A stretch of 56,222 nucleotides of DNA from Deltaproteobacteria bacterium (GTDB lineage Bacteria; Desulfobacterota; Desulfomonilia; Desulfomonilales; Desulfomonilaceae). Location: positions 1-56,222 of the forward strand of contig JAJYDQ010000020.1 of assembly GCA_021777225.1 (NCBI GenBank), read 5' to 3'. Each line of letters opens with the position of its first letter. The stretch's first letter is position 1. The notes under the pieces were generated by a model. It saw only the letters and a program-made list of their open reading frames with translations, was not told the origin of the DNA and ran no database searches. Positions 20,526 through 27,292 of the stretch are shown here, piece after piece. Made by a program: the position numbers and the translations under genes.

Positions 20526-21645
20526 TTAATCATGATTGTTGGAAGCCTTTTCTCTGGCTTCAAACAGTAAAAATTCGTTTATCAGCTTATTAATATCCCC
20601 ATCGAGTACTGCCTGAACATTACCAATCTCGCAGTTGGTCCTGTGATCTTTTACCATCTGGTAGGGTTGGAGCACGTAAGACCTGATCTGCGAACCCCAT
20701 GCAATATCCTTCTTCCCCTTGTGCAAGGTATCTTTCTCGGCTCTTTTCTTTTCCAGTTCCATATCGTAAAGTCGGGACCGGAGTATTTTCATGGCCATGG
20801 CCTTATTCTTGTGCTGCGAGCGTTCATTTTGGCATTGGACTACAATATTTGTAGGTAAATGAGTGATCCTTACAGCCGAGTCTGTCTTGTTAATGTGCTG
20901 ACCGCCAGCCCCAGAAGCCCGATAGGTGTCTATTTTAAGGTCACCCTCGTTGATCTCGATTTCTACATCATCGTCAGCGCTAGGGTAAACAAACAGGGCG
21001 GCAAATGAAGTGTGGCGTCGAGAATTAGCGTCAAACGGTGAAATCCTGACAAGGCGATGGATCCCCATCTCGGCCTTTAGTCTGCCATAGGCGTATTCTC
21101 CATCGACGGAAAATGTGACGGATTTCATACCGGCCTCCTCACCAGGGAGTGAGTCCATAATTTCAGCCTTGTATCCCTCAATTTCAGCCCATCTCAAATA
21201 CATACGAAGCAACATCTCGGTCCAGTCCTGAGCTTCTGTTCCACCTGCGCCAGCGTGTATTTCGACTATAGCTGAACCGGAGTCTTCAAGTTGAGTGAAC
21301 AGACGTTGAACCTCTATTTCCCGAATATCATTTTCGAGTTTGGAAATATTTTCCTGAACCTCTTTAAGAACGGATTGGTCATCCTCTTCAATTGCAAGCT
21401 CCAGGAGCGCTTCGGTATCTTCAATATTTCTGTCAAGCCCCCGGTAATTATGCAATATTTTAGCAATTTGTTTTTGCTCGCGTAAAACGTCTTTCGCCTG
21501 ACCAGGGCTGTTCCAAAATCCTTCGTTGGACTGGGTTTTTTCAATTTCATCTAGTCGAGAAATCTTGTTATCTAGGTCAAAGATAACCTCGGAGGTTCGA
21601 TTGCCTCTGTCTTATTTCCGCCAGTTTTTGTTCAAGTTCAAACAT
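20526..21645 (-). CDS. prfB: Peptide chain release factor 2 (with +1 programmed frameshift)
   Basis: After a +1 shift the product is 372 aa, the normal RF2 length. The zero frame starts at the ATG at 21645, behind a strong AGGAGGT. It encodes 22 residues ending in LRGYL and stops at an in-frame TGA (21577-21579). Skipping one T continues with DLDNKISRLDEIEK and the rest of RF2. The stop-codon recognition tripeptide SPF lies in RISPFDANSRRHTS, and the peptidyl-release GGQ lies in SGAGGQHINKTDS. A start at 21455 alone would lose the N-terminal domain. The start overlaps the 3' end of the YhaM-like gene by eight bases. Confidence 0.96.
21573..21592 (-). promoter_or_regulatory. RF2 autoregulatory +1 frameshift site
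   Basis: On the minus strand the sequence reads GAGGT-TAT-CTT-TGA-C. CTT-TGA-C is the conserved slip site: when RF2 is scarce the ribosome pauses at TGA and shifts +1. The GAGGT placed just before it acts as the internal Shine-Dalgarno-like stimulator. It differs from the E. coli AGGGGG only in strength. Confidence 0.95.
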
Positions 21646-22609
21646 CTTCTACCTCCTGAGGCGTTGGGATCACACCGGAATAGGCGCGCCCCTCAAGCCA
21701 TTTATTGTATTGTGAGAAGCCTTCGGAATCTACCGATAACAGGGCCTCATCAATTATCTTTAGTCTGGAATCCAGGTTGTCGACAAAATGGATTAATATA
21801 GCTTCCCGTGTAAATGGCCTTACCGGCGCCCCAAATCCTGGCTCGCCATGATGTGAGAGAAGGATGTGTTCAAGATCTGTTAACCATGGTTCATTTTCCA
21901 GTCCCAATTCCAGAGCGACCTCATAGAGGAAAGTTACACCCAAGGTTATATGTCCTATCAACCTTCCATCTGTGGTTCGTCTTCGGGCATCGATGGCCAT
22001 TTCTCGCAATTTGCCGATGTCATGAAGTATTGCCCCTGAAATTGCCATGGAACGATTTATTTTGGGCTCGATTTCCAGAATGGCCAGGACTTTTTGAGTC
22101 ACAGACCATGTGTGTTCAATCAGTCCACCCCTGTAAGCGTGATGAACCATCATGGCAGCGGGCGCTCTCTTGAATTGATTCGCAATCCTCTCAAGTATCT
22201 CTTTAACATAATTTGACAATTCCAAAGGATCAAGTGTTTCCGTCAGAACTATCAATTCCTCATAAAGTTCATCAACATTGTATTGAGTTGATTTGATAAC
22301 ATCAGAAACGTTGGGGACTTCGTTCTCGTCAGCTTTTCTAATCTTTTCGATTATAAGTTGGCTCATGTCCCGATACATCTCAATTCGGCCCTCAACTTTT
22401 ACAATGGAGCCAATTTCGAAATCCTTGCCCCATTTTTCAAGAGCTTCCGGCCATAGTTTGGCGGATATCTCGCCAGTGGAATCCCCCAACTTCAGGTCTA
22501 GATAATCCTGACCACTTCGAGTTTTCCTCGAACTTTTCGCTCTCAATTCAAAAAACCGGAGGATTTGGTCCCCATCTTTAAATTCCTTGATAAAATAGGT
22601 TGATGTCAT
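21638..22609 (-). CDS. YhaM-like 3'-5' exoribonuclease (OB fold + HD domain)
   Basis: About 323 aa. Residues ~10-90 form an OB-fold nucleic-acid domain (DYLDLKLGDSTGEISAKLWPE). Residues ~150-310 form an HD phosphohydrolase domain with HHAYRGGLIEHTWSV, ILHDIGKLREM, IGHITLG and LSHHGEPGFG. This is the YhaM/CBF1 architecture, a Mn-dependent 3'-5' exonuclease. The ATG at 22609 matches the family start; a GTG at 22636 is the alternative. It is coupled with prfB by an eight-base overlap. Confidence 0.88.
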   Translation of the reverse strand: MTSTYFIKEFKDGDQILRFFELRAKSSRKTRSGQDYLDLKLGDSTGEISAKLWPEALEKWGKDFEIGSIVKVEGRIEMYRDMSQLIIEKIRKADENEVPNVSDVIKSTQYNVDELYEELIVLTETLDPLELSNYVKEILERIANQFKRAPAAMMVHHAYRGGLIEHTWSVTQKVLAILEIEPKINRSMAISGAILHDIGKLREMAIDARRRTTDGRLIGHITLGVTFLYEVALELGLENEPWLTDLEHILLSHHGEPGFGAPVRPFTREAILIHFVDNLDSRLKIIDEALLSVDSEGFSQYNKWLEGRAYSGVIPTPQEVEDV

Positions 22610-22730
22610 CAGTTCACCAATTCGATAAGAATGCACGTTGGTCTTGAATTATCGTCTGAACAGGTTTGTCTATCAGGCTAAATGGAGCGATTGATCCGAG
22701 ATTCAAATCAATTGTTTTCACAAGGAGAGT

Positions 22731-25112
22731 TCAATGCCGAGTGGTCCGCGTCCTGACATTGGCGCTTATTAAAGAAGCTTCTCTTTTGTTGAGAGCGTCC
22801 AATGATTTTTCCATGAAGTCGGGAATATTTATGTTTTTCCCCCCGTGCAGAATTGCATAAATTTCACCCAGAATAGGTGGATGGAAACCCCGTTGGGCTG
22901 CGATCCTTTTGGCAAAGCGGGACGCTTCAAAACCTTCTACCGCTATCATCTTTTTTCTGTATTGTTCCAATAAAACTTTAGCCGGTCTCCCTTTGCCCTG
23001 TTTCTCATCCATCTGTGCGAGATCACGCCCAAAACTAGAAGACCGCCCCCCACGACAAGTAGCCAGCAAGTCAGCCATCCATACCTGACTCTCTGCGTCA
23101 AATGTTTCCGGGGACGCGCCGAGGAGCGCTCCGAAGTCCCTGATTTCGGCGGTCACAAGCGTTGCGTAAGTCGCTAGGAAATTTTCCGGCGCCAACTTTG
23201 ATCCCTCAAGTATACCATACCCGATTGCATAAACGTTTTTTAGCGCAGCGGCCAGTGTGGTCCCGATGACATCGCCCGAGTAAACAACTCGAAACAGAGG
23301 AGTTTCAATTAACGGTTTGAGTCGTTCGAAGGTCTCAAAATGATCGCAGGCGATTTGAGTCACACCAGCGCCCCCGTGGATGATTTCATGAGCCAAATTT
23401 GCACCGGAGAGTACAGAGATACGCATTCTTTTTCCAAGTCGCTCGAGTTCCTCTCTTACTGTCTGACAAGGCAACAATCCGGTTTCAGGAATGAAGCCCT
23501 TGGTAGCTAGAACAAGGTCGCTTCCCTCCGGCGCCAATTCCAGAATCTTAGTCATTGTAGAATAGAAATACTTGCTGGGAGTCACCAAGAGAATAAGAGA
23601 AGTGTCCCCTATCGCCGCAATGATGTCGGATTCTGGTCGTACCGACCTGGGAATGATGACATCCTTAAAAATCCACGGATGTTTTCGTTCAACTGTCAGT
23701 TTCTCAATTATTTCTTCCCTGGAATCGTACAGAATGAGCGCATGTTCGGAGAGTTCACTCTTTTTAAGGAGATTTCCCCCTATGTGCAAGGCCAATGTAT
23801 ATCCCCAAGCCCCTGCGTTGACGACCGTCAGCGTGTTACGGCCCCGGAGCGGATAAATACGGCGATCAGCGTGATATGCGTAAAAATTTAGCAAAGAAAC
23901 GTTTCGAGGCAAATAATAGCGTCTCCAGACAGACCAGGCAATCGCCCTCCGGCCTGACAAGACCTTTAATCCTTGTCGAGTGGCCTGCTCGAGGTCCGAA
24001 GTGATCAGTGGATGAAAAGGCGGCGTCTTCCTATAGCGTGTCTTAAAGAAAGCGTTCGTGTTTTCAACTTCTTCAATCACTTTTTCATGTAACTTTTTCC
24101 TGTCGATTCTCTCAAAACCCTGAATAGATTTTGCAACAAGCTGAGAAGGATGAATGACCTTGTTTCTGGCGATTTCTTCAATTGCCCGATGAGAAATTCT
24201 TTGAAGGGAGAGAGAATTGTCATCGGCAAGTTCAAAAGGTTCACCGAGTGTTGTTGCTACGTCTCCAAAGATACCTTCTATCCTCTTGATAGCTTTGTCT
24301 GTAGACCCAAGTCCCAAAACAAACGGAATCAACATTGCCCGTCTTTTTGGAAACATGGACAATACAGGGAAAAACCACGGAGAACTAAGATAACTATCTT
24401 CCGGTATGATTGAATAAGAAATGGAAACAGGAATCATCAGCGCTTTACCGGTTGCTTTCACCCCGGCGATCACGCCATGAGGCACGTAAGGCTCCCTAAG
24501 CACTCCATCCCTTGATCGCACCGTATAACGGCTAGTTCTGGCATATAGGGTCTGAACTTCTCCGGCTTCTGCAAGGGCAGCGCAGAACCATGAATATGCT
24601 CGATGCTGAACAGGTGAGAATGTTTTCTGGACCTCCAGTGTCCGAAACGCCTTAAGCCAGTTTGCGACCCATCCAGTTGTAATGCCCCCGGAAACGTGAG
24701 TAACCGGTATTGGCAATCCCATTCTATTCAATAGCTCCGAAGTGTGCGCGTAATCAAAATAAGAAGAGTGATTGACAAAGAAAAAAAGTGGGCCTTTGAA
24801 CTGAAGAATTCTCTCCCTGATATGAGTGGGTGGTTGTGGAGAAATGTCCTTGAATAAAACGCCGGTCAAGAATTTTAGAAGTGAAAGCGTATTATGAAAA
24901 TTGTTTTCGTCAAATGAAACGTTTAATTCGGACAGAGCTTTTTGTAGTTCGTAATGGTCCCCTTTAGGCTCATGTTTTTGAGCTAGCGTAAGAGCACGGT
25001 TTCGTGACGCGTCTATATCTATCAGCCTTGGCCTAACACCGGAAAGACCTTTTAGAATTTTTTTGAACCCTTCATGTCTTCCAAAGACTTTTAAAAATCT
25101 TTCTAGTCGCAT
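22731..25112 (-). CDS. Fused PlsB-like acyltransferase and GpsA-like glycerol-3-phosphate dehydrogenase
   Basis: 793 aa with two enzymes in one chain. Residues ~1-400 are a PlsB-like glycerolipid acyltransferase, with the HX4D motif at H115-D120 (NHSSYFDY). Residues ~426-790 are a NAD(P)-dependent glycerol-3-phosphate dehydrogenase: AGAWGYTLALHIGGN, LATKGF, LSGANLAHE, the catalytic K625 in ALKNVYAIGYG, and the substrate loop GRSSSFGRDLAQ. The first Gly of the GxGxxG motif is Asn432. If both halves work, the protein would reduce dihydroxyacetone phosphate and acylate the product, giving lysophosphatidate. There is no frameshift or stop between domains. Confidence 0.87.
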   Translation of the reverse strand: MRLERFLKVFGRHEGFKKILKGLSGVRPRLIDIDASRNRALTLAQKHEPKGDHYELQKALSELNVSFDENNFHNTLSLLKFLTGVLFKDISPQPPTHIRERILQFKGPLFFFVNHSSYFDYAHTSELLNRMGLPIPVTHVSGGITTGWVANWLKAFRTLEVQKTFSPVQHRAYSWFCAALAEAGEVQTLYARTSRYTVRSRDGVLREPYVPHGVIAGVKATGKALMIPVSISYSIIPEDSYLSSPWFFPVLSMFPKRRAMLIPFVLGLGSTDKAIKRIEGIFGDVATTLGEPFELADDNSLSLQRISHRAIEEIARNKVIHPSQLVAKSIQGFERIDRKKLHEKVIEEVENTNAFFKTRYRKTPPFHPLITSDLEQATRQGLKVLSGRRAIAWSVWRRYYLPRNVSLLNFYAYHADRRIYPLRGRNTLTVVNAGAWGYTLALHIGGNLLKKSELSEHALILYDSREEIIEKLTVERKHPWIFKDVIIPRSVRPESDIIAAIGDTSLILLVTPSKYFYSTMTKILELAPEGSDLVLATKGFIPETGLLPCQTVREELERLGKRMRISVLSGANLAHEIIHGGAGVTQIACDHFETFERLKPLIETPLFRVVYSGDVIGTTLAAALKNVYAIGYGILEGSKLAPENFLATYATLVTAEIRDFGALLGASPETFDAESQVWMADLLATCRGGRSSSFGRDLAQMDEKQGKGRPAKVLLEQYRKKMIAVEGFEASRFAKRIAAQRGFHPPILGEIYAILHGGKNINIPDFMEKSLDALNKREASLISANVRTRTTRH

Positions 25113-25158
25113 AAGGTCAAAACCTCACATGAAGGGTCCTTATAATGTGAACGCTCAA

Positions 25159-26010
25159 TTAGTTTACTATTCCGGTAGCTGGTCGGTCCGACTCACGCGC
25201 CGGTCCCCTTGGCCCCGGTCTTTGCGGTGGTCCCGCTGGGGCTGGCCCTGGAGCAGGGACCGGGCCGGAGTCGTGTCTGACTGATGATGGCGGTTGAGCA
25301 GGCTGTTGTTGCTGCTGGGTCGGAGCAGGGGCAACAGACTGAGGAGAAGCTTCGACTGAGGAAGGAGCGCTTGGCTTTGCTTGAACAGGCGCCCCTGGAG
25401 CCCCATTTGGCTGAACATTGTTGTTTGACGCCGGCGCAGGGGTGTTGAAATGGACTGATGTCAGGACCTCGTTAAATAATTCGTGAAACTTTTCCATACT
25501 TTTGGATGGGGCCAGACATGATACCCTTATGAGGGTCTGATCGAGCTTATAAAAAACTATGACTATGTCCATCCATGTCTTGGGGCTATTTTCGTAAGCC
25601 TGAATGAAAAAATAATATGCGCCGGGGACCCCACACTTAAACTCACCTTCATCGAGGATACGCACTTCCTGCTTTTCTTTTGCCGTGCCCGTACCTTTCT
25701 GGAGGTCCGTTATACCATTTCGCAATTCCTGAAGAAAAACACTCAACTGGTCATTGACGGGCTGGTGCGCCGCAACATGTATTTTAGCCCTAAAATTGTC
25801 GGTTAGATCTGGATCTTGAAATACCACATAATAGTTACCCTGTGGCTTGTCAATCTTGATCCATGTGGCTGGATATTTGATGGAAAATCCATATTCGGCG
25901 CTGTCAAATGTTTTAAAATCAGCGGCGAAGGTGGATAGCGGAGCCAGGAAAATCAAAAAGGTCGCCACTATGGCGCATGTTTTGGTAAACTGAAAACGAT
26001 CTTTCCTCAT
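25159..26010 (-). CDS. Secreted PsbP/DUF1795-like protein with Pro/Gln-rich tail
   Basis: 283 aa from the ATG at 26010, which has AAAGGAG upstream. A signal peptide (RFQFTKTCAIVATFLIFL...TFAA) is followed by a PsbP-like domain (~30-190, opening FDSAEYGFSIKYPATWIKID). A low-complexity tail follows, rich in Pro, Gln, Ala and Ser, with about 90 residues ending in a Pro/Gly/Arg stretch. The domain is known from many bacterial envelope proteins of uncertain role. The tail may span the cell wall or bind other proteins. It lies 46 bases upstream of the acyltransferase fusion on the same strand. Confidence 0.75.
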   Translation of the reverse strand: MRKDRFQFTKTCAIVATFLIFLAPLSTFAADFKTFDSAEYGFSIKYPATWIKIDKPQGNYYVVFQDPDLTDNFRAKIHVAAHQPVNDQLSVFLQELRNGITDLQKGTGTAKEKQEVRILDEGEFKCGVPGAYYFFIQAYENSPKTWMDIVIVFYKLDQTLIRVSCLAPSKSMEKFHELFNEVLTSVHFNTPAPASNNNVQPNGAPGAPVQAKPSAPSSVEASPQSVAPAPTQQQQQPAQPPSSVRHDSGPVPAPGPAPAGPPQRPGPRGPARESDRPATGIVN

Positions 26011-26101
26011 GTGGTGTGTCTCCTTTGTCAAGGGACTGATCCGAACAGCGCGGAATGATACCAACAAAAAGTTTGCAGGGTCAAGTTTTTCTCCGGCTTT
26101 C

Positions 26102-27292
26102 TTACTTATAAACAGACCCTCTCCATTCTATTCCAATATTGAGCATTTTCGTGAACAATACCAAGGTGGCAATCCAGAAACCAGTAAAAATCCCAAAGGG
26201 AGATAACAGAGTATACAACCATCTGCCATGATAATGTTTCAAAAAAATCCCAAAGGGGATTTCAATCGCAAGAATAGTCATTATACTCAGGCCAAAGAGT
26301 ACCGACTCATCTAAAGCAATATTACCATTTGTAGCCATTTTTGTCGCAAAATAAACCACCAGCCCAAACGGAATTAACAGAGGCGTATAGTTAAGCCATA
26401 GCCTAAGAACTTTGATAGGACCATTTTCCAACCCCCCACAAAATGTTCTTCGCCAAAACCTTATTAATTCAGTGATATTATCAAATGGTTTTGTCTGAAC
26501 TAGATCGGAGCGACTCACGCGTAGCTTCAAACCCAAGGCCTTAACAGCTCTAGACATTGCGATGTCTTCGGTAATCTGACCTCTGAGACTGCGCCATGTC
26601 CCAACTTCATTGTAGGATTTTCTTGACATCATGATGAAACAGCCTGAAGAAACCGCTGCGCCCGAACTGGGATCGTTCACTGATGTAATTGGGTAAAAAA
26701 ATGAAATACCAAGCGCCAGGTGTGGATAAATCGATTTTTCAAGAAAGCCCCATTTTTTAAAACCGGGAATCAAACTTAACATGTCTAGCTGATTGGATAC
26801 AAAATAACTTATAGCCCTTAATAAAAGATCTCTAGAAAAAAGGGCGTCAGCGTCGGTAAACAGCAACATGTCGCCTGAAGCGACACTGGCTCCAACGTAC
26901 ATCGCATGAGTCTTGCCAGTCCATCCAGCAGGTAATTTTTCAATCTTGACGGTTTTCACTCGATTGTCCAGCCGTTGCAAAAGCTCCATCAACTGCCACG
27001 TCCCATCATGGCTTCTATCATCTACGAGAATTATTTCAAGATCTTGGTAAGATGATGCAAGAATTGATTCTACAGAAGCCTTAATGTTGGCTTCTTCGTC
27101 TTTAGCTGGCACAATTATGCTCAAACGACCATTGGCTTGGCATGATGACAAAGTTGGTGGAAGATCCAAATCGGACTCAAATTTAAGTTCTCTAAATAAC
27201 AGTGGCGTCAGACGAGCGATTTCCAAAATCATTATGGTCAGCAAAATCGCAAAAGTTGTAAATAACCACATCGGCAAAAGTTCTAGCCTCAC
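26102..27292 (-). CDS. Membrane glycosyltransferase, family 2
   Basis: 396 aa. There is an N-terminal membrane helix, then a GT2 catalytic domain (~50-280): LSIIVPAKDEEANIKASVESIL, ILVDDRSHDGT, the DxD-type site LLFTDADALF and the acceptor motif QITEDIAMSRAVK. Two or three helices follow at the C-terminus. The layout resembles HpnB/CrtQ-type GT2 enzymes, which act on lipid acceptors. The GTG at 27292 has only a weak ribosome site; an ATG at 27271 is possible. Confidence 0.87.
   Translation of the reverse strand: MRLELLPMWLFTTFAILLTIMILEIARLTPLLFRELKFESDLDLPPTLSSCQANGRLSIIVPAKDEEANIKASVESILASSYQDLEIILVDDRSHDGTWQLMELLQRLDNRVKTVKIEKLPAGWTGKTHAMYVGASVASGDMLLFTDADALFSRDLLLRAISYFVSNQLDMLSLIPGFKKWGFLEKSIYPHLALGISFFYPITSVNDPSSGAAVSSGCFIMMSRKSYNEVGTWRSLRGQITEDIAMSRAVKALGLKLRVSRSDLVQTKPFDNITELIRFWRRTFCGGLENGPIKVLRLWLNYTPLLIPFGLVVYFATKMATNGNIALDESVLFGLSIMTILAIEIPFGIFLKHYHGRWLYTLLSPFGIFTGFWIATLVLFTKMLNIGIEWRGSVYK

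Follow-up and report, generated by a model that had tools for sequence, protein, structure and literature searches.

A fused GPAT-like acyltransferase and GpsA-like dehydrogenase in Desulfomonilaceae and related families, with active-site residues lost from opposite halves

Can one polypeptide chain carry DHAP to lysophosphatidate? The question is raised by a 56,222-nucleotide stretch of DNA from a member of the Desulfomonilaceae (contig JAJYDQ010000020.1; the whole stretch is called the window here), for which a preliminary description reported PlsB-like and GpsA-like domains in a single 793-aa chain and proposed exactly this conversion. The chain itself is confirmed by the ORF, Pfam, profiles and fold. 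The ORF (22731..25112, minus strand) is complete, running from an ATG through 793 codons to a stop with no internal stops. Residues 1-423 (23844..25112, minus) form the N-half, a GPAT/PlsB-like acyltransferase domain recognized by profile and fold likeness to GPAT1 (8e4y) and by PF01553 in relatives. Residues 424-762 (22827..23843, minus) form the C-half, a GpsA-like NAD(P)-dependent G3P dehydrogenase recognized by Pfam, NCBIfam and fold. The AlphaFold2 model of the fusion has a pLDDT of 83 and a pTM of 0.79, and hydropathy gives no clear membrane-spanning segment. Both domain families are well known; no report of a GPAT-GpsA fusion appeared among the titles and abstracts listed by searches of the openly licensed literature. 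A GPDH joined to a second enzyme-like domain does exist in Dunaliella salina (6iuy), with the same GPDH fold (Z 36). However, the fused partner in 6iuy is a HAD phosphatase-like domain, whereas in the window fusion it is a GPAT-like acyltransferase.

The next question is where the fusion occurs. The family groups compared were f1 (the Desulfomonilaceae of the window), f15, f17 and f82, together with a group x consisting of L066-L069. In f1 the fusion is essentially complete in 16 genomes including the window's (one copy begins at the edge of its contig); a further two genomes have it only in part, at contig edges. A search for the N-half in 395 genomes of the phylum found it fused to a GpsA-like C-half in every close relative; each strong N-half match belongs to a long ORF with an alignment to the GpsA half as well. 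The groups that carry the fusion among these genomes are f1, f15, f17 and f82, with one f15 ORF running off its contig. The members of group x, which come from a species-wide scan, are also fused, and the ORF in L070, whose record is named as a Desulfarculales bacterium, is the same as in G183 of f17. When one genome from each of 84,980 species was scanned for the N-half with a pattern-limited search, long relatives appeared only in Thermodesulfobacteriota-named records. No lipid-gene link was found in the gene neighbourhood of the f1 fusion. The window (20526-27292) and L140 (4727-11402), a relative with a 6.5-Mb contig, share the order GT2 glycosyltransferase, PsbP-like secreted protein, fusion, OB-fold/HD-domain protein and prfB. 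An ORF at L138 9023-10069, close to the fusion in G056 (f17), has a helix-turn-helix-like start and an RRQFYEIRR-type stretch, and looks IS transposase-like by eye.

The C-half resembles GpsA (PF01210 plus PF07479, as in E. coli GpsA and human GPD1) over its whole length. Residues 427-762 match NAD_Gly3P_dh_N (5.6e-25) and NAD_Gly3P_dh_C (6.4e-25) in Pfam, scoring 88.6 bits for PF01210 and 88.5 bits for PF07479 and so passing the curated cut-offs of 23.1 and 25. Residues 424-777 of the AlphaFold2 model align to GpsA structures with a VIA Z of up to 38 (3k96). However, unlike GpsA, the C-half sits behind a 420-residue acyltransferase-like domain, and the NCBIfam PRK00094 models match it (best 1.2e-52) yet under their cut-offs. 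The active-site set scored was K120, K204, N205, D260, T264, R269, N270 and Q/E295 in human GPD1 numbers, with residue roles taken from work on that enzyme (PMC12874384). Residue alignment places K538 (23499..23501, minus) at K120 and K625-N626 (23235..23240, minus) at K204-N205, which are K195-N196 in E. coli GpsA, so the naming of K625 as a dehydrogenase residue in the preliminary description holds. D681, T685, R690 and S691 (23040..23072, minus) align with D260, T264, R269 and N270. The set was originally called complete, which is not quite so: seven of its eight positions are kept. The exception is the N270 position, where every one of the 16 f1 members has Ser691 and the phylum's 28 stand-alone GpsA all have Asn. 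In human GPD1 the N270A change costs 5.6 kcal/mol (PMC12874384). The second departure had been seen from the start: the first Gly of the dinucleotide-binding GxGxxG motif is Asn432 (N432-A-G-x-x-G437; 23802..23819, minus), with the other two Gly kept. This Asn is found in 16/16 f1 and 2/2 f15 sequences, whereas all 28 stand-alone GpsA have Gly. The two substitutions could weaken the dehydrogenase of the window fusion. Even so, the GpsA half is probably enzymatically active, since nothing else in the window genome matches PF07479. One observation tempers this argument. In f2, a sister group of the same class (G018-G032, G037 and G039), a PF07479 GpsA match is absent from 16 of 17 genomes, the same search giving a match in 10 of 14 well-known control genomes. 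Being the only GpsA in the genome therefore does not prove that the activity is needed. Several f2 genomes also have PlsB-length ORFs that weakly match the N-half profile.

What of the N-half? In the window it matches no Pfam family, PF01553 over cut-off included, and the window protein has no PF19277 (GPAT_C) match. The predicted acyltransferase nature of this half rests on PF01553 in its relatives, on profiles and on fold. A profile of its relatives matches human GPAT1 at 3.2e-8 and a PlsB structure at 7.8e-4, and the AlphaFold2 model (residues 17-484) aligns with GPAT1 8e4y at a Z of 26.1 over 374 residues (rmsd 4.6). Motif I, HX4D, lies at H115-D120 (24753..24770, minus), the place originally given for it, and its His and Asp are present in 16/16 f1 members and 12/12 PlsB. 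Motif III is altered. By residue comparison, YARTSRYTVRSRDG at residues 190-203 (24504..24545, minus) keeps R199 and R201 and is missing the Glu, although the Arg pair (RxR) is aligned with more certainty than this Glu. R199 and R201 are invariant in all 16 f1 members, and their counterparts R318/R320 in human GPAT1 bind the G3P phosphate (PMC11011501, from which the motif roles are taken). The likeness to PlsB and the mitochondrial GPAT1 has further limits: the N-half is about half their length, and f1 members have an HVSG-type segment in place of AAGxN and a Lys for the motif II Arg. Two extreme views of this half were tried. The view that it belongs to a complete bifunctional set was dropped once motifs III and II and the AAGxN segment had been set beside those of PlsB. 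The opposite view, of a wholly dead half, was toned down in light of the invariant HX4D and phosphate-binding Arg pair and the low dN/dS. With HX4D and both Arg kept, "mainly non-catalytic" may also be the wrong label.

The other family groups depart from these patterns in opposite directions. In the C-halves of f1 and f15 the residues equivalent to K120, K204, N205, D260, T264 and R269, and to Glu285 of E. coli, are all retained. In contrast, the GpsA halves of f17, f82 and x have lost the equivalents of K204, N205, D260 and T264 in 20/20 sequences, K120 also in 20/20 (mostly to Arg) and R269 in 19/20. Stand-alone GpsA of the phylum keep all six, except for one K120 in 28. The predicted model of the residue-poor half still has the GpsA fold (3k96, Z 34). 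On the acyltransferase side the situation is reversed. In f15 the catalytic His is Tyr in 3/3 fusions and the second Arg is Ile, with the GpsA half intact. In f17, f82 and x the N-halves still show HX4D, an AAGxN-type segment, the motif III Glu before an insertion and RxR (one Lys). PF01553 matches these N-halves above its cut-off, at 1e-7 to 1e-11, and f15 L046 is just over it; a profile of the f17/f82/x N-halves matches human GPAT1 at 3.5e-7 and a PlsB structure at 1.5e-7. In other words, the f17/f82 fusions look intact in the GPAT half and are without catalytic residues in the GpsA half, the reverse of f1/f15, and no family group among the four is fully intact at both sites.

Did the fusion arise more than once? 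In a tree of the GpsA half that included 29 stand-alone GpsA, fused and stand-alone sequences split at 100/100. In a tree of the N-half with PlsB-type sequences, from which short PlsC rows were left out, they split at 100/95. Both trees contain the same two fusion clades, f1+f15 and f17+f82+x, the former weak in the GpsA tree (87/43). The simplest reading of this agreement is that one old fusion has been inherited as a unit in several sulfate-reducer families of the Thermodesulfobacteriota. By the Nei-Gojobori method on unsaturated pairs, the f1 dN/dS is 0.05-0.075 for the N-half and 0.01-0.04 for the C-half. For f17, f82 and x, the residue-poor GpsA half gives 0.09-0.42, about equal to the N-half (0.09-0.52), so it too is maintained. 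Both halves are under purifying selection where tested.

Gene inventories bear on which half each cell might need. Absences here come from HMM searches of draft genomes, most of which are at least 90% complete outside f1. In f1, and in the two f15 genomes of highest completeness, the fusion is the only GpsA and PlsY is absent. A PF19277 PlsB is found in 17 of these 18 genomes (15 of 16 in f1, the exception being 82% complete). The preliminary description had warned that a normal gpsA and plsB elsewhere could leave one half inactive. This is half the case in the window genome, which has a normal PlsB (an 867-aa ORF matching PF19277) but gpsA only in the fusion. All f17 and f82 genomes, conversely, have a strong separate GpsA and no PF19277 match. 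PlsY and PlsX are present in 9/10 f17 genomes. The six f82 genomes (G253, G274, G294, G332, G368 and G403) have no PlsY and a single, weak PlsX match. G183 of f17 has no PlsY, PF19277 PlsB or PlsX. The fusion is the only first-acylation candidate of known type in f82 and G183. However, f82 also has PlsC-type and long acyltransferase ORFs, so "only GPAT" there is limited to the PlsB and PlsY types.

How, then, might the two halves be used? The original proposal of one chain leading from DHAP to lysophosphatidate is partly supported: the GpsA half keeps seven of eight residues and is the only GpsA in the genome, but the N-half has its motif losses and the cell a separate PlsB. The reading favoured here, with moderate confidence, is that of an old fusion family in which the window C-half is the cell's only GpsA and the N-half is mainly a partner domain, the roles being reversed in the f17/f82 clade. 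The window C-half would convert DHAP to sn-glycerol-3-phosphate with NAD(P)H. The N-half might bind G3P, lysophosphatidate or the acyl donor, coupling G3P supply to the lipid pathway, although this is a guess, and perhaps it has weak or altered acyltransferase activity. The separate PlsB and PlsC would carry out the bulk of the acylations in the window organism, the first step falling to PlsB. In the f17/f82 clade the GPAT half would acylate G3P and the inactive GpsA half would be the partner domain. A more specific scenario can be offered only tentatively. Perhaps these are mirror-image, half-dead enzymes derived from one bifunctional DHAP-to-lysophosphatidate ancestor. In one lineage a GPAT-like sensor of the acyl donor or lysophosphatidate would control a live G3P dehydrogenase, and in the other a GpsA-like sensor of NADH, DHAP or G3P would control a live GPAT.

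What if the window fusion is truly bifunctional? In this hypothetical scenario the C-half makes G3P and the N-half acylates it, perhaps by direct hand-over, and PlsB is a parallel GPAT. The invariance of HX4D and R199/R201 in f1, the strong purifying selection on its N-half, the GPAT1-like fold and the intact-looking GPAT half of the sister clade (in f82 the only GPAT of known type) are all consistent with this. However, the motif III Glu, AAGxN and the motif II Arg are all gone from f1; the nearest relatives, f15, are without the His and the second Arg and have an intact GpsA half; and a normal PlsB accompanies the fusion in all f1 genomes except the incomplete one. Human GPAT4 is active although its motifs II and III are poorly conserved too (PMC11011501), and on this account bifunctionality is still given some weight despite the motif III and AAGxN losses, as a possibility that is doubtful on balance.

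A second alternative fares much worse. DHAP acyltransferases belong to the wider acyltransferase family, and in f1 the changes in motif III and AAGxN would allow a different acceptor. The N-half might then acylate DHAP or another acceptor and the GpsA half reduce the acyl-DHAP, as in the eukaryotic acyl-DHAP/ether-lipid route. However, the genome has no GpsA other than the fusion half and does have a G3P-requiring PlsB, the dehydrogenase of the second clade is without catalytic residues, and the known acyl-DHAP reductases come from a family other than GpsA. This makes the route very improbable. Finally, the window genome is a draft of 153 contigs, but the idea that two neighbouring genes were joined by an error of assembly or annotation, or fused by chance, is rejected with near certainty, and with it the sequencing error at the junction considered at the outset, because the same uninterrupted ORF is found in 15 further Desulfomonilaceae genomes (11 genera in all, one copy on a 6.5-Mb contig with conserved synteny) and the fusion occurs in three more family groups.

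The favoured reading of a family with reversed roles has practical consequences. Fusion genes will be labelled GpsA in annotation even where the GpsA half is probably inactive. In f82 bacteria, where PlsB and PlsY were not found, the fusion is a candidate GPAT. If the residue pattern has been read correctly, a fusion has been kept by selection over a very long time even though the catalytic site was lost in opposite halves in different lineages. This would make the family a natural system in which to ask what keeps fused enzymes together, be it channelling, regulation or mere folding.
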